Below, in pieces: positions 5,032 through 26,935 of a stretch of DNA of 64,000 bases. Made by a program: the position numbers and the translations under genes. Numbering within the stretch: position 1 is the first letter of the stretch; each line of letters starts with the position of its first letter. Below the pieces are notes generated by a model. The model saw only the letters and a program-made list of their open reading frames with translations. It was not told the origin of the DNA and searched no databases. This DNA is from Hwanghaeella grinnelliae (GTDB taxonomy: Bacteria; Pseudomonadota; Alphaproteobacteria; UBA8366; Aestuariispiraceae). The stretch covers positions 682,001-746,000 of the forward strand of contig NZ_SADE01000004.1 in the NCBI RefSeq assembly GCF_004005845.1, given 5' to 3'.

Positions 5032-6569
5032 CGTGCGCCAAGAACGCCGGAGACATAGATCTCCGAATTATAGAGCTGGTCGGCCGTTGCGCTCAGGAAG
5101 CCATTGACCGGCCCGGCGAAAACACTCAGCAGGACCGAAGCGGCCAACAGGGCGCCCGTTGCGACCAAAGGCAAACGCGGCATCGTGACCGCCGGCGTCG
5201 GCGCGGGATCATCCTCGCCAGCCGCCGCAGACGGCTCTTCCGGGTTTGTCGTTTTCCAGAAGACTTTGCTGCCCGCTTGTGCGAACCCCAATACGGCGAC
5301 CAGCGTCGTCGCCAGAATAACCGACCAGATCAGCCAAACATGCTCGCTGCCGCGCACCGCATCAAGGATCAACAACTTGCCGATGAAGCCGGATAGCGGC
5401 GGCATCCCGGCGCTGGCGATTGCCGCGCCGAAGAACAGGGCGGCGAGCAGCCCATGTTGCGCCATCGCAGGCGCGGGCACCAGGGCATCGCCGACCGCAC
5501 CGCGGCGCTCACGCACCAGGTCGACCACCAGAAACATCATCGCGCCCGCGATGGTCGAATGGATCATATAGTAGAGCGCTGCCTGCGTCGTTTCCGGCGT
5601 GAAGACCGAGATGGCGATCAATAGCGTTCCCATCGACCCGATGGCGGAAAACGCCGCCAGACGCCCCAGCTTGCTTGCGCCGAGCACGCCGATCATGCCG
5701 ACGCCCAAAGTGACCAACGCAGCGGCAAGGAACCATGGGCCCGTGAGTTCCCCTGTGACGGCGGCATCCGGGCCGAACACAAGCGTGTACATGCGCAGGA
5801 TCGCATAGGCACCGACCTTGGTCATGATCGCGAACAGGGCGGCGACCGGGGCAGGGGCCTCGGCATAGGTTTCGGGAAGCCAGAAATGCAGCGGCAACAG
5901 GGCTGCCTTGATGGCGAAGACAAGCAACAGCAGCATCGCACCGACCCGCAGAAGGGCGGTGTCGTTCGCCGGCAGTTCCGCCACGCGGACCGCGAGGTCG
6001 GCCATGTTGAGCGTTCCGGTCACCGCATAGAGCGTGCCCAGCGCGAACAGGAACAAGGTGGAACCGAGCAGGTTGTACAGCACGTATTGCAGACCGGCGC
6101 GGAACCGCCGCCCGCCGCCGCCATGGATCATCAATCCATAGGAGGCAATCAGAAGCACTTCGAAGAAAACGAACAGATTGAAGGCGTCGCCGGTGAGGAA
6201 CGCGCCGCAAATACCCATCAACTGGAACTGGAACAGGGCGTGGAAATGATGTCCGCGCGCATCCCAGTCGGATCCGATGGCATACAAAACAACGACCAAG
6301 GCCAGGACCGAGGTGATCAGCACCATCAACGCTGACAACCGGTCCAGCACCAGCACGATCCCGAAGGGTGCTGGCCAATTGCCCAATTCGTAGACACCGA
6401 TCCGGCCCGAGGCGGATTCCACAAACAGGCCGATGGCGATGGCGACCAGCGCAAAGCAGGCGCCGAGCGAGAAAATCCGCTGCAAGCCTTGGTGATGACG
6501 CATGGCGAGCACGATAACGGCTGCCATCAGGGCCGGTAGGACGACCGGCGCGATAATCCAATGGTTCAT
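5028..6569 (-). CDS. mrpD: Mrp-type cation/H+ antiporter subunit D
   Basis: This 513-residue polytopic protein belongs to the proton_antipo_M family, homologous to complex I subunits NuoL/M/N. About 14 membrane helices can be read, with the conserved charged pair region AFNLFVFFEVLLIASYGLMIHG near residue 130 and KAALLPLHFWLPETYAEAPAPVAALFA near residue 220, which carries the channel lysine. Its ATG overlaps the mrpC stop (ATGA). Together with MrpA it forms the ion-translocating core of the antiporter in the cytoplasmic membrane. Confidence 0.95.
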   Translation of the reverse strand: MNHWIIAPVVLPALMAAVIVLAMRHHQGLQRIFSLGACFALVAIAIGLFVESASGRIGVYELGNWPAPFGIVLVLDRLSALMVLITSVLALVVVLYAIGSDWDARGHHFHALFQFQLMGICGAFLTGDAFNLFVFFEVLLIASYGLMIHGGGGRRFRAGLQYVLYNLLGSTLFLFALGTLYAVTGTLNMADLAVRVAELPANDTALLRVGAMLLLLVFAIKAALLPLHFWLPETYAEAPAPVAALFAIMTKVGAYAILRMYTLVFGPDAAVTGELTGPWFLAAALVTLGVGMIGVLGASKLGRLAAFSAIGSMGTLLIAISVFTPETTQAALYYMIHSTIAGAMMFLVVDLVRERRGAVGDALVPAPAMAQHGLLAALFFGAAIASAGMPPLSGFIGKLLILDAVRGSEHVWLIWSVILATTLVAVLGFAQAGSKVFWKTTNPEEPSAAAGEDDPAPTPAVTMPRLPLVATGALLAASVLLSVFAGPVNGFLSATADQLYNSEIYVSGVLGAR

Positions 6570-6910
6570 GTGTCAGCCTCTTGGTCATCGAGACCGATAT
6601 CGACCGCGTCGGTCCGCGCCGACAGATAAGCGCCCAGCGCCAACAGCACGACCACCGCCGTCATCCCAAAGGAAATCACGATCGCGGTCAAAACCAGCGC
6701 CTGCGGCAGCGGATCGGTATAGGCGGTGACGCCTTCGCTCAGAACCGGCGGCATGTCGACCGCCAGCCTGCCTGTTGCGAACAGGAAGACATTGACCGCG
6801 TAGGACAGCATCGAGATCCCCAAAATCACCGGGAAACTTCGAAAGCGCAGCACAAGGTATAGGCCGACCGCCGTCAAAACACCGATGGCGCTGGCCACGA
6901 GGAATTCCAT
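6566..6910 (-). CDS. mrpC: Mrp-type cation/H+ antiporter subunit C
   Basis: The 114 residues correspond to MnhC/MrpC, a homologue of complex I subunit NuoK. Three membrane helices are seen, with the family stretch PVILGISMLSYAVNVFLFATGR and, in the third helix, DPLPQALVLTAIVISFGMTAVVVLLAL. The gene starts on the base directly after the mrpAB stop and overlaps mrpD by 4 bases, so the operon is tightly coupled. Confidence 0.95.
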   Translation of the reverse strand: MEFLVASAIGVLTAVGLYLVLRFRSFPVILGISMLSYAVNVFLFATGRLAVDMPPVLSEGVTAYTDPLPQALVLTAIVISFGMTAVVVLLALGAYLSARTDAVDIGLDDQEADT

Positions 6911-9808
6911 CTACGCCTCCTTTCCGGCAGCAACGGCCATCTTGTCTGTTGCATTGGCAACCGATCTCCGCGCCGGATCGATATCCATCGGCAGCTGGTT
7001 CACGGTCTCACCCGCGCGCCGCGCCATGCTGGACAGGCTGTCCAGCGCCAACATCACGGCCCCGATGACGCATAGGAAGACGCCGATATCGAAGGCCATC
7101 GCGGTTGCCAGTTCGAATTTTTCCAGCGGCGGGATCGTGACATAGCCGAAATCGCTGGTCAGGAACGGCCGACCCGCAAACCAGGCCCCCACGCCTGTGA
7201 AGCAGGCGGCCATGACGCCAAGGGCAATCGTCGTGTGATAGGGCACCCGCTGACGCGCAACCGCCCAGGCGAAGCCGCTGGCCATGTATTGCATCACCAG
7301 CGCGATGGCGACGACAAGGCCGGCGATGAAGCCGCCGCCCGGCTCGTTATGACCGCGCAGGAAAATGTAGACACCGGCCATCAAGGCGATCGGCATCATC
7401 ACGCGTGAGGCGATGACCATCATCAAGGGGTGGCGGTCGCCGGCCTTCTTCGAATCCAGCTCGCCGCTCGCCAGCCACCGTCCGCCCGCGCCGCCCAAAA
7501 CCGATTGGGACAAGGCGTAGATGACCAGGGCCGCGATCCCCAGCACGATGATCTCGCCAAATGTATCGTAGCCACGGAAGTCGACCAGGATGACGTTGAC
7601 CACGTTCGTGCCGCCGCCCCCGGAATACGAGTTCTCCAGATGGAAGGCCGATATCGACTCTTGTGCGAAATCACCCAGCAGAATGGCATAGGTCAGCCCC
7701 GCAACCGCCAGGCCGCCGGCGCCCGCGACGACCCCGTCCCGCAACCGGCGCCCGGGCGAACTTTCCTTTGGACTGACCTTGGGCAGGAAGTTCAGCGCCA
7801 GCAGCAGCAGGATGATCGTCACGACCTCGACCGAAATCTGTGTCAGGGCCAAGTCGGGGGCCGAGAAGTAGATGAAAGCGAGCGAGACGATCAAACCGAC
7901 CACGCCCATCAGGATCAGTACCAACAGCCGATTGCGATGGAAGACGAGCATGCCGAGCGAGCAAAGGACAAGCAGCGCCCAGGCAATCGCGGGAACCGCC
8001 GCGATTTCGAGCGGTTCGCGCACGGGCGGGCCGGCTTCTCCGCCCGTCCAGGCGAACAACCCGGCCGCAATCACCGCGACGGCGAAAATCGCAGCGAAGC
8101 GCGACAGGGACCCGTTGTGCAACATGTCCGTCAACCAGCGGCTGAACACCGTCGCCGTGCGCGCGATGGCATCGAAGATCTGCTTAGCCTCGGGTCGGGG
8201 GGCGGCATCCCAGCGGGGCGCCAGAACCGAATGGATCGACAAGACCAAGGCGCCGCCCGCGACCGCGATAGCCGACATGAACAGCGCCGGGGTCAAACCG
8301 TGCCATATCTTCAGCGAGAAGTAGGGTAGTTCACCGCCGACCACCGCGCCGGCGGTTGTCCGCACCAGGGGTTCGGCGACAGCGGGAAGGACTCCGATCA
8401 AGACGACCAGCAGGACCAGGAAGCCCGGCGCCGCCCACATGCCGAAATCGGGATCGTGCGGTTTTGACGGATAGTCCTGGCGGACGTCGCCCAGGAAGAC
8501 GTGGACGATATAGCGGAAGGAATAAGCGACCGAGAACAGTGCCCCCAATGTCGCCAGGGCAGGGACCAGCCAAGGCGATCCCGCCCAAACGGTATGGGCA
8601 GCTTCCTCAAGCATCATTTCCTTCGACAGGAACCCGTTCAGCAGCGGAATGCCCGCCATCGACAGTGCCGCAAGCATCGCGATCAGGAAGGTGATCGGCA
8701 TCAGGTGACGCAGCCCGCCCAAACGCTTGATGTCGCGGGTATGCGCCTCGTGATCGACAATACCGGCGGTCATGAACAAGGCGGCCTTGAAGGTCGCGTG
8801 GTTGATGATGTGGAACACCGCCGCCACCGCGGCAAGCGGCGTGCCGAAGCCCAGCAGCATGGTGATCAGGCCCAGGTGACTGACGGTGGAAAACGCCAGC
8901 AGCGCCTTCAGGTCATCCTTGAACAACGCGATCACCGCGCCCAGGACCATGGTGATTAGACCCGTCGTCGCGACGATGTAGAACCATTCCGGCGTGCCCG
9001 CCAGAACCGGCCACATCCGCGCCATCAGGAACAGACCCGCTTTCACCATTGTCGCGGAATGGAGATAGGCCGAAACCGGCGTGGGCGCCGCCATGGCGTG
9101 GGGCAGCCAGAAATGGAACGGGAACTGCGCTGATTTCGCGAAACAGCCGACCAGGATCAACAGCAGAGCCGGCAGGTAGAGCGGCGAGGCCTGGATCGCG
9201 TCCTTGTTCTCCAGAATGACGGTGAGGTCGTAGCTGCCGACGATATTGCCCAGGATCAGCATGCCAGCGATCATCGCCAGCCCGCCCATGCCGGTCACCG
9301 TCAGCGCCATCCGCGCGCCCTGGCGTCCTTCCGGAAGATGCTTCCAATATCCGATCAAAAGAAACGAGGATAACGAGGTCAATTCCCAGAAGATCAACAG
9401 CAGCAGGATGTTGTCCGACAGGACAATCCCGACCATCGCCCCCTGGAAAAGCAGGAGATAGGTGTAGAACTGGCCCATCGGATCCTGCCGCGACAGGTAG
9501 AATCGCGCATAGAGAATGATCAGAATGCCGATGCCCAATATCAGCCCGGCAAACAGTAGCCCCAAGCCGTCCAGGAAGAAATTTACGTTCAACCCAAGCG
9601 ACGGTAGCCAGGGCAAACTGAACTGCAGCACCTCACCATCGAGCACGGCGGGCGCGCAAATCGTCAGCATGATTATGGCCAGTATGGTCGGTACCGCCGC
9701 GGTCATGGCGCAAACGTTGCGGCCTGCCTGGATCATCAGGCCCGGAAACAACGCACCGACAAAAGGCATCATTGCGATCAGGGGCAGAAAAGTGCCGATC
9801 GACTCCAT
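6911..9808 (-). CDS. mrpAB: fused Mrp-type antiporter subunits A and B
   Basis: This 965-residue protein joins MrpA (NuoL-like, roughly residues 1-780) and MrpB (roughly 800-940) in one chain, as in the group 2 Pha/Mrp systems of alphaproteobacteria. The MrpA part shows QFPFHFWLPHAMAAPTPVSAYLHSATMVKAG, with the conserved lysine and histidines of the antiporter-like fold. The MrpB part shows GVYIFLRGHNEPGGGFIAGL. It heads the operon AB-C-D-E-F-G. Expected role: Na+ (or K+)/H+ exchange at the cytoplasmic membrane for alkali and salt tolerance. The 246-base upstream gap should hold the operon promoter, but I could not fix its position. Confidence 0.96.
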   Translation of the reverse strand: MESIGTFLPLIAMMPFVGALFPGLMIQAGRNVCAMTAAVPTILAIIMLTICAPAVLDGEVLQFSLPWLPSLGLNVNFFLDGLGLLFAGLILGIGILIILYARFYLSRQDPMGQFYTYLLLFQGAMVGIVLSDNILLLLIFWELTSLSSFLLIGYWKHLPEGRQGARMALTVTGMGGLAMIAGMLILGNIVGSYDLTVILENKDAIQASPLYLPALLLILVGCFAKSAQFPFHFWLPHAMAAPTPVSAYLHSATMVKAGLFLMARMWPVLAGTPEWFYIVATTGLITMVLGAVIALFKDDLKALLAFSTVSHLGLITMLLGFGTPLAAVAAVFHIINHATFKAALFMTAGIVDHEAHTRDIKRLGGLRHLMPITFLIAMLAALSMAGIPLLNGFLSKEMMLEEAAHTVWAGSPWLVPALATLGALFSVAYSFRYIVHVFLGDVRQDYPSKPHDPDFGMWAAPGFLVLLVVLIGVLPAVAEPLVRTTAGAVVGGELPYFSLKIWHGLTPALFMSAIAVAGGALVLSIHSVLAPRWDAAPRPEAKQIFDAIARTATVFSRWLTDMLHNGSLSRFAAIFAVAVIAAGLFAWTGGEAGPPVREPLEIAAVPAIAWALLVLCSLGMLVFHRNRLLVLILMGVVGLIVSLAFIYFSAPDLALTQISVEVVTIILLLLALNFLPKVSPKESSPGRRLRDGVVAGAGGLAVAGLTYAILLGDFAQESISAFHLENSYSGGGGTNVVNVILVDFRGYDTFGEIIVLGIAALVIYALSQSVLGGAGGRWLASGELDSKKAGDRHPLMMVIASRVMMPIALMAGVYIFLRGHNEPGGGFIAGLVVAIALVMQYMASGFAWAVARQRVPYHTTIALGVMAACFTGVGAWFAGRPFLTSDFGYVTIPPLEKFELATAMAFDIGVFLCVIGAVMLALDSLSSMARRAGETVNQLPMDIDPARRSVANATDKMAVAAGKEA

Positions 9809-21489: not shown

Positions 21490-22782
21490 GTGTCTAATGT
21501 CGTGGTGATCGGCTCCCAATGGGGTGACGAAGGCAAGGGCAAGATCGTCGACTGGTTGTCGGCGCGGGCGGATGTGGTGTGCCGGTTCCAGGGCGGCCAC
21601 AACGCGGGGCATACGCTCGTCATCGACGGAGTAACCTACAAACTCAGCCTGCTGCCGTCTGGCGTGGTCCGGCAGGGCAAGACGTCGATCATCGGCAACG
21701 GCGTCGTCATCGATCCTTGGGCCCTGATGGAAGAGATCGAGCGCGTAACCGCCGCCGGTGTCGATATCGGGCCGCATAACCTGATGGTCGCGGAAAATGC
21801 CGTTCTGATCCTGCCGGTGCATCGCGCCGTCGATATGGCGCGTGAAGCCGCGCGCGGGGCCAAGAAAATCGGCACAACGGGCCGTGGAATCGGACCGGCC
21901 TATGAAGACAAAGTCGCCCGCCGCGCCATCCGCGTCTGTGATCTGATGGATCCGGCCTCGTTGGAAGACAGGGTCGACGAATTGCTGATCCACCATAACG
22001 CTCTGTTGACGGGGCTGGGCGAGGAAACCTTCGAACGCGCCGCCTTGATGAAAGAGCTTGAAGCGATTTCCGTGAAACTGGCGCCCTATGCCGGCGTCGT
22101 CTGGAAAGAGTTGGAAAAGATCCGGCACGAGAACAAGCGCGTGCTGTTCGAAGGGGCCCAGGGCGTGATGCTGGATGTCGATCACGGCACCTATCCCTTC
22201 GTAACGTCGTCGAACACCGTGCCCGGGCAGGCTGCATCCGGCACCGGGGTCGGCCCGCGGTCGGTCGGTTATGTGCTGGGGATCACCAAGGCTTACACCA
22301 CGCGCGTTGGTTCCGGCCCGTTCCCGTCCGAACTGACCGACGCGATCGGTGAAAAACTGGGTGAGCGCGGCCGTGAATTCGGTGTCGTTACCGGGCGGAA
22401 GCGCCGCTGCGGCTGGTTCGATGCGGCCCTGGTGCGGCAGTCGGTAAAGGTCGCCGGCATGGACGGTATCGCCTTCACCAAGCTGGACGTATTGGACGGC
22501 TTCGATGAGTTGAAGATCTGCACAGGGTATGAGATCGACGGGCGCACCTACGATTACCTGCCCGCGTCGACGGGCCTGCAGGCCCGCGCCAAGCCGATTT
22601 ACGAGACCATGGAAGGCTGGAGCGAAAGCACGTTCGGCGCCCGCAGTTGGGCGGATTTGCCGGCCACGGCGATCAAATACATCCGCCGGGTCGAAGAATT
22701 GATCGAAGCGCCTGTTGCCTTGCTGTCCACCAGTCCGGAACGCGAGGATACAATCCTGGTTCGCGACCCGTTCGAAGGATAA
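21490..22782 (+). CDS. purA: adenylosuccinate synthetase
   Basis: PurA joins IMP and aspartate with GTP to form adenylosuccinate in AMP synthesis. The 430 residues show [11 protein letters not shown] (residues 8-18), the GGHNAGHT motif, [13 protein letters not shown] and [13 protein letters not shown]. The start is GTG at 21490 with GGAGGG nearby. The gene follows hisZ and the two may be cotranscribed. Confidence 0.97.
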
Positions 22783-22810
22783 TCGGTTTATCCGGTCCAA
22801 CGGTGTTCAG

Positions 22811-22828
22811 GCAGTTGAATTCGACTGC
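22811..22828. repeat. near-perfect 18-bp palindrome after purA
   Basis: GCAGTTGAATTCGACTGC is palindromic apart from one base pair. It lies 29 bases after the purA stop and 120 bases before the pseudokinase gene. It could be an operator for the latter or part of a purA terminator; neither can be proved by eye. Confidence 0.35.
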
Positions 22829-22947
22829 ACCGGCCTGAATCGTGCTAGTAATTTCACCATATGGGCGGGGCAAAGCCGGTGGCTCAGGGCTGGCCATGCT
22901 CTGTTGTTGGTGTTTGCTTGGGTTGATTTGGATCGGATTGCCGTGAC

Positions 22948-24990
22948 ATGGCGCTAAAAATCTCTAGCGGGGGCGACGGGGCGGACGAATCCGCGCCGAA
23001 GCAAATCACGTCCGGATCCGTCTCCGTCAAGGATCGTTACGAGATCAAACTCGACGAACCGCTACCCGACTATGACACGGCGCCCGCCTTGGCCTATCGG
23101 GCGGTCAGCATACGCGACCCGTCCCGGCCGCTCCACGCCCTGGTCTGCGACCCAAAGCTTCCGCCACGATTGGATATGATCAGCGCCCTGCATCGCGTTG
23201 AAGGCGGCAGCATGGTGCAAGTCTCGGACTGGGATGTGGTCGATTGGCCCCCGGAAGGCCGGCGGTGTCCTGTCCTGATCCTGAACCGGCCCGGCGGAAA
23301 GAAAGTTTTGTCGGGATTGACGGATAAGCGGAAGCCGCTTTCCGAAGATTTCGTCACCAAGCACCTGATCCATCCCGCCGTCGAAATCCTGCGTGAAATG
23401 CACGGTGTCGGCGAAACGCACCGGGCGCTCAGGCCTGACAACATCTATTTCTCAAGCGAGGATGAGAAAGGCCTGGTCATTGGCGAGTGCTTCAGCGCGC
23501 CGCCCGCGATGACGCAGCCGCTTGTCGTTGAAACGCTGGATTCCTGTCTCAGCCTGCCCGGCGGGCGCGGGGAGGGGTTGCCCGGCAACGATCTCTATTC
23601 TCTCGGCGTTTGCATCCTCTCTCTGCTGATCGGCCAGTATCCCTGCAATCAGATGAATGACGAGGAAGTCATCCAGCAAAAAATGGCGGTCGGCTCCTAT
23701 TCTGCGATTGCGCAGAACCATCGTGTGTCCCTGACCATCATGGAAGTGCTTCGCGGCCTGTTGAACGATGAGGAAACAGACCGCTGGACCATCGAAGACC
23801 TGGCCCTGTGGCTCAATGGCCGACGGTTGTCACCAAAACTCCAGGCACTTCCGGCCAAGGCGACAAGGCCAATAACCGTGGGGGGACAGGGTTTCAACAC
23901 GGCCAGGGAACTTGCCGTCGGACTACACAAGAACTGGGACGAAGCCATTCCGCTTGTGCGCGAAGGCGAAATCGATGGGTGGCTGCGGCGAAGCCTGGGG
24001 GATGAATCCAGGACCGAGGCGATGGCAGCCGCAAAGAGCGCGGCCGGGAATGACGAACCGGACAGGTTGGTGGCGCGGGCGATCATTGCATTGGATCCCA
24101 ATGGGCCGATCCGACTGCGCGGTCTGTCCGCGACGGTCGGCGGGCTTGGGATGTTTTGTTCGGTCTATCGTGATGATGCCGAAGCACAGCGGCTTTTCTC
24201 ACATGTAATTCATATGGGGCTGGCCACCTTTTGGCTCGAACAGCAATTTCACCCGCGGGCTGAATCCGCCCATTCTGTCGCCCGGTTGGACAGAATGCGC
24301 GCCACGTTGATGCGGCCCACGCTGGGTTTCGGCATGGAACGCGTGATGTATGAACTGAATTCCGACATGCCCTGCCGTTCCCCTTTGTTTGAAAAGGACT
24401 ATGTGGCCACGCTTGACCATGTTCTTCCTGCGTTGGACCGGGCCGCTCGGGAGCGCGAAGGCGATATCAAGCGCCTGATCGACCGCGATATCGCAGCCTA
24501 TATCAGCGTGCATTTCCGCCGGTCCGTCGCCGGGGATCTGTCCGATCTTGAGGGAGAGGACCATGCAGCCGCAGCGATCGCGCAGGTTCGGATGCTGGCG
24601 GTGTTGCAGGACAGTGTGGCAAGCGGGAAGCCTTTGCCGGATTTGAGCCGCGCCGCCGTCAAGCTGCTGCAGCCCTCAATCGAGGAATTCCAGTCGCGAA
24701 CCACCCGGAAACGGATCACGCAGACGATGCTGAAAGTCGGTAAGGAAGGGCGCCTTCAAGGCCTGGTCAACGTTATCGCGAACCCGGCTGAGATCGATGC
24801 GGACAAGGCAGGGTATTTGAAGGCAACCAATGACTTTACGAAATCCGCGGTGGAAATGATCAACCTTCGCCGCAATATCAAGAATCAGGCGACGGTCGCG
24901 GCAACGGTCGGCGGTCAGTTTTCGTCAGGCATCGCCGGTATTCTGGCAGCCTTGGTGTGTCTGATTACGGCAGCGATACGCTTGGCCTAG
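22948..24990 (+). CDS. membrane-anchored protein pseudokinase
   Basis: The 680-residue protein has a degenerate protein-kinase fold in its first third. The catalytic-loop equivalent is HRALRPDNIYF (residues 158-168): Ala replaces the catalytic Asp of HRD, and Arg replaces Lys. The DFG position reads GEC (about 179-181), so metal binding should be lost. NDLYSLGVCILSLLIG (214-229) retains the D-x-Y-S-L-G structural motif. A long helical region of unknown type follows (about 290-640), then one C-terminal membrane helix (about 655-678), placing the bulk in the cytoplasm. A second membrane-protein gene follows 34 bases on. Probably a regulatory pseudokinase; no partner kinase is visible. Confidence 0.8.
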   Translation: MALKISSGGDGADESAPKQITSGSVSVKDRYEIKLDEPLPDYDTAPALAYRAVSIRDPSRPLHALVCDPKLPPRLDMISALHRVEGGSMVQVSDWDVVDWPPEGRRCPVLILNRPGGKKVLSGLTDKRKPLSEDFVTKHLIHPAVEILREMHGVGETHRALRPDNIYFSSEDEKGLVIGECFSAPPAMTQPLVVETLDSCLSLPGGRGEGLPGNDLYSLGVCILSLLIGQYPCNQMNDEEVIQQKMAVGSYSAIAQNHRVSLTIMEVLRGLLNDEETDRWTIEDLALWLNGRRLSPKLQALPAKATRPITVGGQGFNTARELAVGLHKNWDEAIPLVREGEIDGWLRRSLGDESRTEAMAAAKSAAGNDEPDRLVARAIIALDPNGPIRLRGLSATVGGLGMFCSVYRDDAEAQRLFSHVIHMGLATFWLEQQFHPRAESAHSVARLDRMRATLMRPTLGFGMERVMYELNSDMPCRSPLFEKDYVATLDHVLPALDRAAREREGDIKRLIDRDIAAYISVHFRRSVAGDLSDLEGEDHAAAAIAQVRMLAVLQDSVASGKPLPDLSRAAVKLLQPSIEEFQSRTTRKRITQTMLKVGKEGRLQGLVNVIANPAEIDADKAGYLKATNDFTKSAVEMINLRRNIKNQATVAATVGGQFSSGIAGILAALVCLITAAIRLA

Positions 24991-25024
24991 CGGTCTGGCG
25001 TTGATGTGAGATTTGGAGGACTGA

Positions 25025-25645
25025 GTGGCGCGCCAACCGGCTAAGAAAGGCGGAAAAACCCGGGAAATCCGGCTGACCTCGGCCAATCGGCGCCGGGCAA
25101 AAATACTGGGGTATTTCCTGGCGCCGTTGCTGGTTTTCGTCGGGTATCCGACCTTGATGGTCGCGTGCGGCGGGATGCTGCCGACATTTGTTGCGTTCAT
25201 CGTCGACAGTCGCAAGGAACGCTATGCGGCCCGGACGGTGGGTTACCTCAACAGTGCCGGCGTCTTCATCGTCTGTCTGGACATGTGGGGCGGGGACCAT
25301 ACGTGGCAGCACGCCCTGGATATTCTGGCACAGCCGATCAACTATTTGATCATGTTCGGTGCCGCTGCGGTTGGCTGGGCGTTGTATTTCGTTATTCCGC
25401 CGATCACGAATGCCTATCTTGCGATTCATAACGACCTGCGCATGAAGGCGTTGAATTCCGACCAGGAGAAGCTGGTGAAGGAGTGGGGGACGGGCGTCCG
25501 CCGGAACGCGCCCTCCTTGGACACCAAGGAGAAGGAAGAACCGCAAGAAGACGAAGAAGATGGCGCGGACCCGACTAGGCGCACGTCCTCCTCATCGGAA
25601 AACGTGCCCAGCATGTCGGAAATCGGGAAATCAGCCGCGTCCTAG
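25025..25645 (+). CDS. small polytopic membrane protein paired with the pseudokinase
   Basis: I do not recognise a family. The GTG at 25025 follows GGAGGA and gives 206 residues. There is a basic N-terminus (ARQPAKKGGKTREIRLTSANRRR) and about four hydrophobic stretches (residues 28-46, 48-62, 73-90 and 106-127). A long acidic and Ser-rich cytoplasmic tail follows (about 145-206, with KEKEEPQEDEEDG and SSSSENVPS). Its position and spacing after the pseudokinase gene suggest one operon and a joint membrane role. The tail could be a target for phosphorylation or binding, which is inference. Confidence 0.75.
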   Translation: MARQPAKKGGKTREIRLTSANRRRAKILGYFLAPLLVFVGYPTLMVACGGMLPTFVAFIVDSRKERYAARTVGYLNSAGVFIVCLDMWGGDHTWQHALDILAQPINYLIMFGAAAVGWALYFVIPPITNAYLAIHNDLRMKALNSDQEKLVKEWGTGVRRNAPSLDTKEKEEPQEDEEDGADPTRRTSSSSENVPSMSEIGKSAAS

Positions 25646-25703
25646 GTTCTCAAAACAGAGAACCCGTCTTGGACGAGACCCTGTTATTGGACAGGACGCG
25701 GCT
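25633..25703. terminator. multi-branched convergent spacer, likely bidirectional terminator
   Basis: An 11-bp perfect inverted repeat (AGCCGCGTCCT at 25633-25643, AGGACGCGGCT at 25693-25703) encloses three small hairpins. These are GGTTCTC/GAGAACC (25645-25664), GTCT/AGAC (25666-25679) and CCTGT/ACAGG (25680-25695, sharing bases with the outer arm). It fills the space between the membrane-protein stop and rpoH, which converge. It works on both strands, so it is probably a bidirectional terminator. It lacks the invariant bases of a tRNA. Confidence 0.55.
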
Positions 25704-25716
25704 AGAATGTCGGTGA

Positions 25717-26610
25717 TCAGGCCGCCGGCAGCGTTAGTTTCTTTTCGATTGCTGCGTTCCGCATAGCCTTCTGCAATTTTTCGAAGGCGCGGACCTCGAT
25801 CTGCCGGACGCGTTCACGGCTGACACCGAATTCGTTGCTCAAATCCTCAAGCGTCTTGGGATCTTCTGTCAGTCGGCGTTCCGTCAGGATCTTTTGTTCC
25901 CGGTCGTTCAACGTCTTCATTGCGTCGGCCAGCATTTCGCGGCGGATCGTCAATTCTTCCGAGTCGGCCAGAATTTCTTCCTGGTTGTCCGAGTCGTCTT
26001 CAAGCCAATCCTGCCACTCGCCATCGCCGTCGACACGCAGCGGCGCGTTCAAGGAATTGTCCCCGCCCGCAAGACGACGGTTCATCTGGATGACGTCCTG
26101 TTCGGGAACATCCAACTCCGTCGCGATATGCGTGACATGTTCGGGCGCCAGATCGCCTTCCTCGAAGGCCTGAAGCTTTGCCTTCATCTTGCGCAGATTG
26201 AAGAACAGCTTCTTTTGAGCCGCGGTCGTTCCCATTTTCACGAGCGACCAGGAATGCAGAATGTATTCCTGGATCGACGCGCGGATCCACCACATGGCAT
26301 AGGTCGCCAGACGGAAACCGCGATCAGGATCGAAGCGTTTTACCGCCTGCATCATGCCCACATTGCCTTCCGAGATAAGCTCGGCGACGGGCAGGCCATA
26401 GCCGCGATACCCCATGGCGATCTTGGCCACGAGGCGCAAATGGCTGGTTACCAGCTGATGCGCGGCTTCGCGGTCATTATGTTCGCGCCAGCTTTTGGCC
26501 AGCATGAATTCCTGATCCGGCTCCAGCATCGGGAATTTCCGGATCTCGTCGAGATAGCGCTGCAGGTTCCCTTCGGAACTGATGACAGGCATTTTTGCGA
26601 TGTTGCTCAT
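25717..26610 (-). CDS. rpoH: RNA polymerase sigma-32 factor
   Basis: At 297 residues this is a sigma-70-family factor of the RpoH subgroup. It shows region 2 (NVGMMQAVKRFDPDRGFRLATYAMWWIRASIQEYIL), the diagnostic RpoH box QKKLFFNLRKMK (about residues 130-141) and region 4 (LEDLSNEFGVSRERVRQIEVRAFEKLQKAM). It directs transcription of heat-shock and protein-quality genes. It has no close operon partner: convergent with the membrane-protein gene, and 325 bases downstream of rluD. Alphaproteobacteria often carry two rpoH copies, so this may be one of a pair. Confidence 0.96.
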   Translation of the reverse strand: MSNIAKMPVISSEGNLQRYLDEIRKFPMLEPDQEFMLAKSWREHNDREAAHQLVTSHLRLVAKIAMGYRGYGLPVAELISEGNVGMMQAVKRFDPDRGFRLATYAMWWIRASIQEYILHSWSLVKMGTTAAQKKLFFNLRKMKAKLQAFEEGDLAPEHVTHIATELDVPEQDVIQMNRRLAGGDNSLNAPLRVDGDGEWQDWLEDDSDNQEEILADSEELTIRREMLADAMKTLNDREQKILTERRLTEDPKTLEDLSNEFGVSRERVRQIEVRAFEKLQKAMRNAAIEKKLTLPAA

Positions 26611-26935
26611 GACCGGACCTTTCCCTCTTCTACAACCAACTTCGTCGATCTGTGTCTGGGACTATGGCCCAAACGAGTTCCAGTCGACGACGCCTCATTT
26701 ACACTCCTACCCAGAAAATGCGGCGCAATTAAGGCGAAACTAGCACAAAATAATCGCCTCTGTTTGGATATGGTGACGCACTAGATATTGATCAATAACT
26801 AAAGCCGACACTTTATCTATTGAGGGATACGCGACCCTGCCAATCACGGATTATGGCATTCTCACACTTTTCAGTGATTTGGGCTGGTCAGTCCGACCGG
26901 CGATTCCGGTCGGTGAATTTGGGCGACGACCGCTG
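26611..26935. other. rpoH upstream region
   Basis: No gene is seen. The part nearest rpoH is A/T-richer than its surroundings, as expected for a promoter, and holds a perfect 12-bp palindrome TATTGATCAATA (26786-26797) about 176 bases before the rpoH start. I could not assign a convincing -35/-10 pair or a sigma-32 promoter. A hairpin at 26893-26913 separates this region from rluD. Confidence 0.5.
26893..26913 (-). terminator. hairpin after rluD
   Basis: CCGACCGG and CCGGTCGG form an 8-bp stem with a 5-base loop, 22 bases beyond the rluD stop. No T-run is present on the minus strand, so it is a weak or factor-assisted terminator. Confidence 0.45.

Follow-up and report, generated by a model that had tools for sequence, protein, structure and literature searches.

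A 64,000-nucleotide stretch of the Hwanghaeella grinnelliae genome (the window) carries two adjoining open reading frames (ORFs), ORF1 and ORF2, which form a unit: the product of ORF1 has a kinase fold and, judged by sequence, its family as sampled is one of pseudokinases, while ORF2 encodes a predicted four-segment membrane protein that accompanies ORF1 across the Alphaproteobacteria. Our favored explanation, which we hold to be somewhat more probable than its converse, is that the pair builds one inner-membrane complex without phosphotransfer, a scaffold built on a pseudokinase; its co-travelling in about a third of the class genomes points not to an enzyme but to a membrane scaffold that is old and so far unstudied. 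Literature searches gave no recognised description of the pair, in keeping with the initial annotation of this DNA, which had proposed an undescribed system. The two genes and the parts of ORF1 are listed below, with residue counts from a family alignment of 95 rows that includes the window protein and in which four genomes are present twice (L010/L171, L009/L170, L017/L168, and L018/L169).

22948-24990, plus strand: ORF1, putative tail-anchored pseudokinase, 680 amino acids, ATG start (ORF call)
23008-23823, plus strand: putative pseudokinase domain, residues 21-292 (structure match to WNK3, 5o21_A; profile match over residues 56-290)
23143-23145, plus strand: V66 at the beta3 (VAIK) lysine position (V/I/L in 87/95 rows, K in 1/95)
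23419-23442, plus strand: catalytic loop H158-R-A-L-R-P-D-N165, with A160 at the HRD Asp (Asp160 in 0/95 rows, Asn165 in 91/95, Arg162 in 79/95)
23485-23493, plus strand: E180-C181-F182 at the DFG place (residue 180: E 54, D 26, P 8, Q 6, and A 1 of 95)
23875-24867, plus strand: helical repeat domain, about residues 310-640 (model secondary structure; first part common to DLHK-like helicase fusions and an intact kinase)
24886-24984, plus strand: C-terminal membrane helix, residues 647-679 (model helix; hydropathy peak at 662-680)
25025-25645, plus strand: ORF2, predicted four-helix membrane partner whose last helix is long, 206 amino acids, GTG start (ORF call)

The product of ORF1 has a bilobal Hanks-type kinase fold, as the initial annotation had recognised from a D215-L-Y-S-L-G220 region that is indeed present. 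Its AlphaFold2 model (mean predicted local distance difference test [pLDDT] of 93.7 and predicted template modelling score [pTM] of 0.88) matched WNK3 (5o21_A) over residues 21-291 with a VIA-align Z of 23.7 (root mean square deviation of 2.7 over 252 aligned residues), and the profile of the 95-row family, compared with solved kinases, matched at 7.5e-17 over residues 56-290. The Pfam Pkinase match to ORF1 (5.7e-7) was just under the Pfam cut-off, and no second Pfam family was found in it at E ≤1. The register was fixed by the profile alignment to MAPKAPK2 together with an alignment with the intact kinase and the DLHK-like proteins described below, placing V66 at the beta3 lysine, A160 at the HRD Asp, and E180 at the DFG Asp. 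The HRA reported earlier in place of HRD (H158-R159-A160) was confirmed. Likewise, the GEC reported in place of DFG (G179-E180-C181) is present, but since E180 stands opposite the DFG Asp, that reading was one residue early; E180-C181-F182 occupies the DFG place, and the acid is mostly kept.

Across the family, the beta3 Lys was lost in 94 of the 95 rows and the HRD Asp in all of them, and no row held the beta3 Lys, the HRD Asp, and the DFG Asp together; this loss of the beta3 Lys and HRD Asp is family-wide. Residue 160 was A in 44 rows, N in 14, S in 12, R in 8, G in 8, M in 4, E in 2, and others in 3, while H158 was kept in 90. No glycine-rich loop was conserved across the alignment, and the alphaC place in the ORF1 model holds only a short helix (residues 75-81). 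Directly before this helix, R74 (R in 90/95 rows) coincides with E or D at residue 180 in 77/95 rows, and the two may form a salt bridge. On the evidence of these aligned residues, the family appears to have lost the catalytic base and the ATP lysine while mostly keeping the loop Asn and the DFG acid, thus retaining part of the metal site.

Behind the kinase domain lies the helical repeat domain, whose units open with short beta-hairpins at residues 309-316 and 388-395 in the model. No relative of this domain was found in the PDB by phmmer with residues 297-680 at E ≤1, and the whole-model structure comparison covers mainly residues 21-292. ORF1 has one hydrophobic helix only, the C-terminal membrane helix that had been noticed at the outset. 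A search outside the family covered 397 genomes of the phylum, with two candidates scored per genome; strong matches to the ORF1 profile (E <1e-70) occurred in 20 of them, all of the same class, and the top match outside the class reached 2.8e-32. Several of the strongest outside-family matches extend into the first repeat of the ORF1 profile. For instance, L183 (genome G431, 6488-9127, 879 amino acids) is likewise a kinase plus repeats, aligned to profile positions 65-454 at E 1.3e-33; its motifs are intact (HRDIKPGN and ADFG), whereas ORF1 is degenerate and stands beside ORF2, and no ORF2 relative was found among the frames of 17 kb around L183. In the 48 genomes sampled from the class of L183, the next best listed match was 1.6e-19, covering the kinase part only. 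In addition, four proteins of 2094 to 2366 amino acids and one 1170-amino-acid frame (L184 to L188, from G657, G545, G755, G742, and G571) matched the profile up to position 395, with E from 3.2e-23 to 3.7e-17, and L189 and L190, kinases ranked among the outside matches, aligned in their kinase part only. In L184 and L186, the two that were scanned, the chain ends in DUF4011, SF1 helicase, and MTES_1575 nuclease domains; the model of the anti-phage protein ProA scored them at 492 to 522 bits, under its cut-off of 1500.

L184 to L186 carry HRDLRP and GFG (L187 instead has HRDINP and SFG), and from these motifs, as in the Pseudomonas aeruginosa DLHK table entry of O'Boyle et al. 2025 (PMC12599244), we assign them provisionally to the DLHK pseudokinases. 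In the sections of that paper on which this and the later comparisons draw, DLHK pseudokinases keep the HRD Asp, are often linked to helicase/DNA2 domains, have no membrane regions, and, although the beta3 lysine is replaced in them, are proposed to be able to bind ATP. ORF1 resembles them in the replaced beta3 lysine and in the catalytic-loop Arg (H-R-x-x-R-P), R162 (79/95 rows) probably being equivalent to R231 of that paper by the H-R-x-x-R pattern, and the DLHK-like proteins found here share the first part of its helical repeat domain after the kinase domain; it differs in the absent HRD Asp (0/95), the C-terminal anchor, and the membrane partner. A tree built on the shared region with 28 of the 95 ORF1 rows set these apart from seven outsiders with a support of 0.972. 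Given this separation and the repeats shared with outside kinases, the ORF1 family seems to have branched off a kinase-plus-repeat module as a degenerate form anchored in the membrane.

The second gene begins 34 bases after the first on the same strand, and its description in the initial annotation as a four-helix membrane protein with an acidic, Ser-rich tail held, the tail being little conserved across a 29-row alignment. In the ORF2 model (pLDDT 86.2, pTM 0.67), helices span residues 19-39, 41-50, 52-60, 67-88, 94-102, and 104-154; helices 41-50 and 52-60 form one kinked segment, and the model thus predicts four membrane segments. Both ends may lie inside, to judge from the positive residues found ahead of the first helix and between residues 61 and 66, a loop. 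M51, P53, A57, D61, N76, P104, G117, W118, W154, and G155 were invariant in the 29-row alignment, while a 90-row alignment had no invariant column and kept P53, N76, G79, G117, W154, and G155 in at least 90% of rows. The ORF2 protein of the window had no Pfam match at E ≤1, the 29 rows had scattered weak ones (best 0.0027), and a MotA match to ORF2 (E 0.14) was taken for chance. Against the PDB, the ORF2 profile reached 0.062 at best, and Foldseek with the ORF2 model gave no match at E ≤0.001; the best match of a second structural comparison (Z 7.4) was a small designed helical protein, a resemblance of little weight between helix bundles. Large open frames around ORF2 in a few genomes (951, 955, and 871 amino acids), considered as ORF2 fusions, proved to be upstream extensions that overlap ORF1 in another frame.

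The two genes travel together. In an even sample of 386 alphaproteobacterial genomes (the class sample), with listed ORF1 matches at E 2.6e-75 or better, ORF1 was found in 132 genomes and ORF2 in 132, an identical set among the matches listed that spans about 64 families by hand count. Moreover, a same-strand ORF2 lies downstream of 136 of the 150 listed ORF1 genes, within 1142 bases and with a median of 104.5 between matched ends. Eleven more genomes with weak ORF1 matches only (5e-4 to 2.8e-10) were taken to hold ordinary kinases and left out. At the level of the order (43 genomes), ORF1 was found in 32 and ORF2 in 30. Among 80 stretches examined, 77 contain ORF1, followed directly by ORF2 on the same strand in 71. 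The six exceptions comprise a locus with a diverged ORF2 detected by a wider profile (L140), one with ORF1 broken in two frames and then ORF2 (L164), one at a contig end (L161), and three in which none was found (L144, L157, and L167). The whole pair is duplicated in tandem at L141 (6723-11892) and L166 (6777-12047), with the ORF1-ORF2 order kept in each copy. The initial annotation had suggested a search for the pair in other alphaproteobacteria, where it is indeed present, and had named two outcomes that would speak against its reading, homologues with intact HRD and DFG motifs and genes that never occur together; neither was observed.

The pair in the window lies among the following features.

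21490-22782, plus strand: purA, upstream of ORF1
25645-25664, no strand assigned: 7-bp perfect inverted repeat with a 6-base loop and without a T run, between ORF2 and the convergent rpoH (read from the sequence)
25717-26610, minus strand: sigma-70-family gene, convergent to the pair (Pfam support), presumably rpoH

Matches in Pfam back purA and the sigma-70 factor, and, among the recurrent neighbors, a pseudouridine synthase, a serA-type dehydrogenase, and a protein similar to histidyl-tRNA synthetase. The more specific names rpoH, hisZ, and rluD are those we take to apply. The inverted repeat was not among the predicted terminator-like sites, no sigma-70-like promoter was found in 22600-26900, and Rfam at gathering scores gave no match in the window. 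The ORF1 start MALK[IV]S is kept in near relatives, and GGAGG precedes the GTG start of ORF2. The closest relatives of ORF1 in named records came from Hwanghaeella (68% identity), a metagenome-assembled genome labelled Mesoflavibacter (50%), Pacificispira (45%), and Curvivirga (41%), Hwanghaeella and Pacificispira both being placed in the Aestuariispiraceae, Rhodospirillales.

Neighbors were counted by tblastn at the 66 of the 77 ORF1 loci with more than 2 kb upstream and more than 3 kb downstream. purA lies upstream on the same strand in 42 of these, rpoH lies downstream and convergent in 37, both occur in 31, and either occurs in 48, so that purA, the pair, and the opposing rpoH form the commonest arrangement. 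The recurrent neighbors were purA, the hisZ-like gene, rpoH, the rluD-like gene, serA, and the gene before serA, and no other stood out among the examined loci. Since purA and rpoH are common neighbors in many lineages, the place is old; the earlier remark that the pair sits between two genes with no obvious link to it stands in both parts, as this neighborhood gives no functional link to the pair. A conserved surrounding region could by itself hold two unrelated genes together, and the purA-rpoH region is indeed widely conserved; nevertheless, this explanation is already largely refuted and, in our view, highly improbable, because the same 132 genomes carry both genes and because the pair is intact where neither purA nor rpoH is near (e.g., L098, L101, L102, and L113), is kept in the tandem copies (L141 and L166), and occurs on an Azospirillum replicon. 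The top rpoH locus, with about 1.5 kb per side, was inspected in each of 30 genomes that lack a strong ORF1 match: purA was not seen in 25 and was seen in 5, facing rpoH at 35, 61, 83, and 242 bases (between matched ends) in four and lying about 1 kb off in one. The abutting purA and rpoH in those four indicate that the pair is present or absent at this site as a block, the pattern to be expected if the two genes are acquired or lost as one. Inheritance of the pair within the Alphaproteobacteria is best explained as mainly vertical.

Several findings weigh against the reading of the pair as a scaffold unit. In G313, the sole listed ORF1 (L157) and ORF2 lie on separate contigs, and this ORF1 has no adjoining ORF2; the same is true of the second copies of ORF1 in G162 (L144) and G128 (L167); and G054 and G173 each carry three ORF2 copies without ORF1. 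The distances of ORF1 and ORF2 were correlated (r of 0.41, or 0.39 with RpoH and RluD distances removed, a value reached by 1 of 1000 permutations), which speaks for the pair as a unit, yet this test is weak, with 23 loci, and its RluD control is odd (r of -0.03 with RpoH), so the correlation lends weak support. Finally, a pure scaffold would not need the retained Asn165 (91/95), Arg162 (79/95), and acid at residue 180 (80/95), and with the Asn and the acid still in place, a nucleotide or metal could yet be bound. As a separate observation, the extra ORF2 relatives of G054 without ORF1 lie at 9879-10475 in L173, 9978-10499 in L174, and 9559-9996 in L175.

The same retained residues, with R74, would suit a site that is changed rather than dead, capable of unusual nucleotide or metal binding or of another transfer (as in SelO and SidJ, and as proposed for DLHK), with the membrane partner as its substrate or switch. 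The DLHK-like relatives, which share the repeat domain and the catalytic-loop Arg and for whose group ATP binding is proposed despite the replaced beta3 lysine (PMC12599244), point the same way. However, the HRD Asp and the beta3 Lys are gone almost throughout, no glycine-rich loop is conserved, 15 of the 95 rows have no acid at residue 180, and the variability of residue 160 (A, N, S, R, G, M, and others) indicates that no single substitute was selected. We therefore regard a changed site as fairly unlikely and retain the scaffold without phosphotransfer as the preferred reading.

Allosteric regulation of active kinases is a common role of eukaryotic pseudokinases, and ORF1 might in the same way regulate an active Ser/Thr kinase encoded elsewhere in the genome. 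Kinases were surveyed in 21 ORF1-carrying genomes, namely, that of H. grinnelliae and 20 picked for small size. Five of them encode one other remote kinase-like protein each (at most 45.2 bits), which leaves some candidates for such a target: in G280, G083, and G194, three genomes of one family, this is a protein of about 490 amino acids (L242, L245, and L246) with a weak Pkinase match of 39 to 44 bits, and in G061 and G178 it also matches APH and, in G178, RIO1 as well. Against this stand the other 16 genomes, which have no Pkinase match beyond ORF1 or ABC1/UbiB proteins, and the H. grinnelliae genome itself (97.85% complete), in which the Pkinase model at E ≤1e-4 matches ORF1 only and the PP2C model gives nothing at E ≤1e-3. 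Regulation of a distant kinase is thus not needed in these hosts and quite improbable; with no other Pkinase and no PP2C match in this genome, participation in a cascade of Ser/Thr phosphorylation is unlikely there, as it is in most of the surveyed hosts.

Bacterial pseudokinases are largely unexplored experimentally, and seven families have been outlined, namely, GLW, DLHK, CP1, DYD, ActPs1, ActPs2, and ActPs3 (PMC12599244). By the features tested and as these families are described in the sections drawn on, the pair is distinct from four of them, since GLW, DLHK, ActPs3 (by MviN), and CP1 do not fit. GLW replaces HRD in the GLW pseudokinases, whereas the ORF1 family keeps the His in 90/95 rows, and CP1 pseudokinases are COG3899-linked and have no transmembrane region, whereas ORF1 has a membrane helix. 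MviN/ActPs3, a pseudokinase domain inside a larger transmembrane protein of peptidoglycan synthesis, is likewise membrane-linked with its catalytic motifs lost, but ORF1 has a single anchor, a separate partner, and Pkinase only in Pfam at E ≤1. The monotopic membrane pseudokinase EssB/YukC of type VII secretion, compared here by its description only, has been described as a scaffold (PMC12599244), and ORF1 is similar to it in manner rather than in membership; no secretion genes were recognised among the recurrent neighbors of ORF1 and ORF2, although no search aimed at them was made. The score of ORF1 against the lanthionine synthetase model LanL (NF038150) was 33.8 bits, with a cut-off of 650. 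A member of the ORF1 family in Azospirillum ramasamyi is annotated "serine/threonine protein kinase" next to a "hypothetical protein" that matches the ORF2 profile at 2.5e-48; the former reads HGAIRPTN in its catalytic loop and GDC in the DFG place, which by sequence makes the kinase name misleading. Azospirillum lipoferum 4B and Azospirillum sp. B510 carry ORF1 as well.

A defense or conflict system might also be considered, as the kinase-repeat module is common to DUF4011/SF1 helicase/MTES_1575 nuclease proteins and PADLOC gave weak matches to PD-T4-6 and Mad6. Yet the score of ORF1 against MAD6, the MADS defense kinase (NF047741), was 34.7 bits, with a cut-off of 460; the pair occupies a stable housekeeping site, with purA upstream or rpoH downstream at most of the 66 loci counted; the 150 listed loci in 132 genomes amount to mostly one copy per genome; and the carriers include genomes of 1.2 to 2 Mb. 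A defensive role accordingly seems very improbable.

Taken as an inner-membrane scaffold, ORF1 would be a cytoplasmic, tail-anchored protein whose pseudokinase domain is joined to the helical repeats and whose last helix lies in the membrane, probably without turning over ATP. ORF2 would be a four-helix membrane protein whose last helix runs on into the cytoplasm, and it probably binds the anchor and repeat domain of ORF1. The resulting complex may serve as a membrane platform on which one or more client proteins are brought together, much as is described for EssB/YukC. We consider it unlikely, though worth stating, that the pair is instead an ancient alphaproteobacterial membrane switch, in which Asn165, the acid at 180, and Arg162/Arg74 would allow the kinase fold to sense a metabolite, a metal, or a nucleotide and to pass its state through the repeats to ORF2, ORF1 being in some hosts, this one included, the sole Pkinase-domain protein found.

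The pair would add to the known pseudokinases a family that is widespread in one class, has a near-constant membrane partner, and has lost the catalytic base while keeping part of the metal site. Its members can be mislabelled, as shown by the Azospirillum protein named a serine/threonine protein kinase despite its missing HRD Asp. Moreover, because the H. grinnelliae genome gave no other Pkinase match, this host would offer a chance to study what a pseudokinase does, free of the background of an active Hanks-type kinase.

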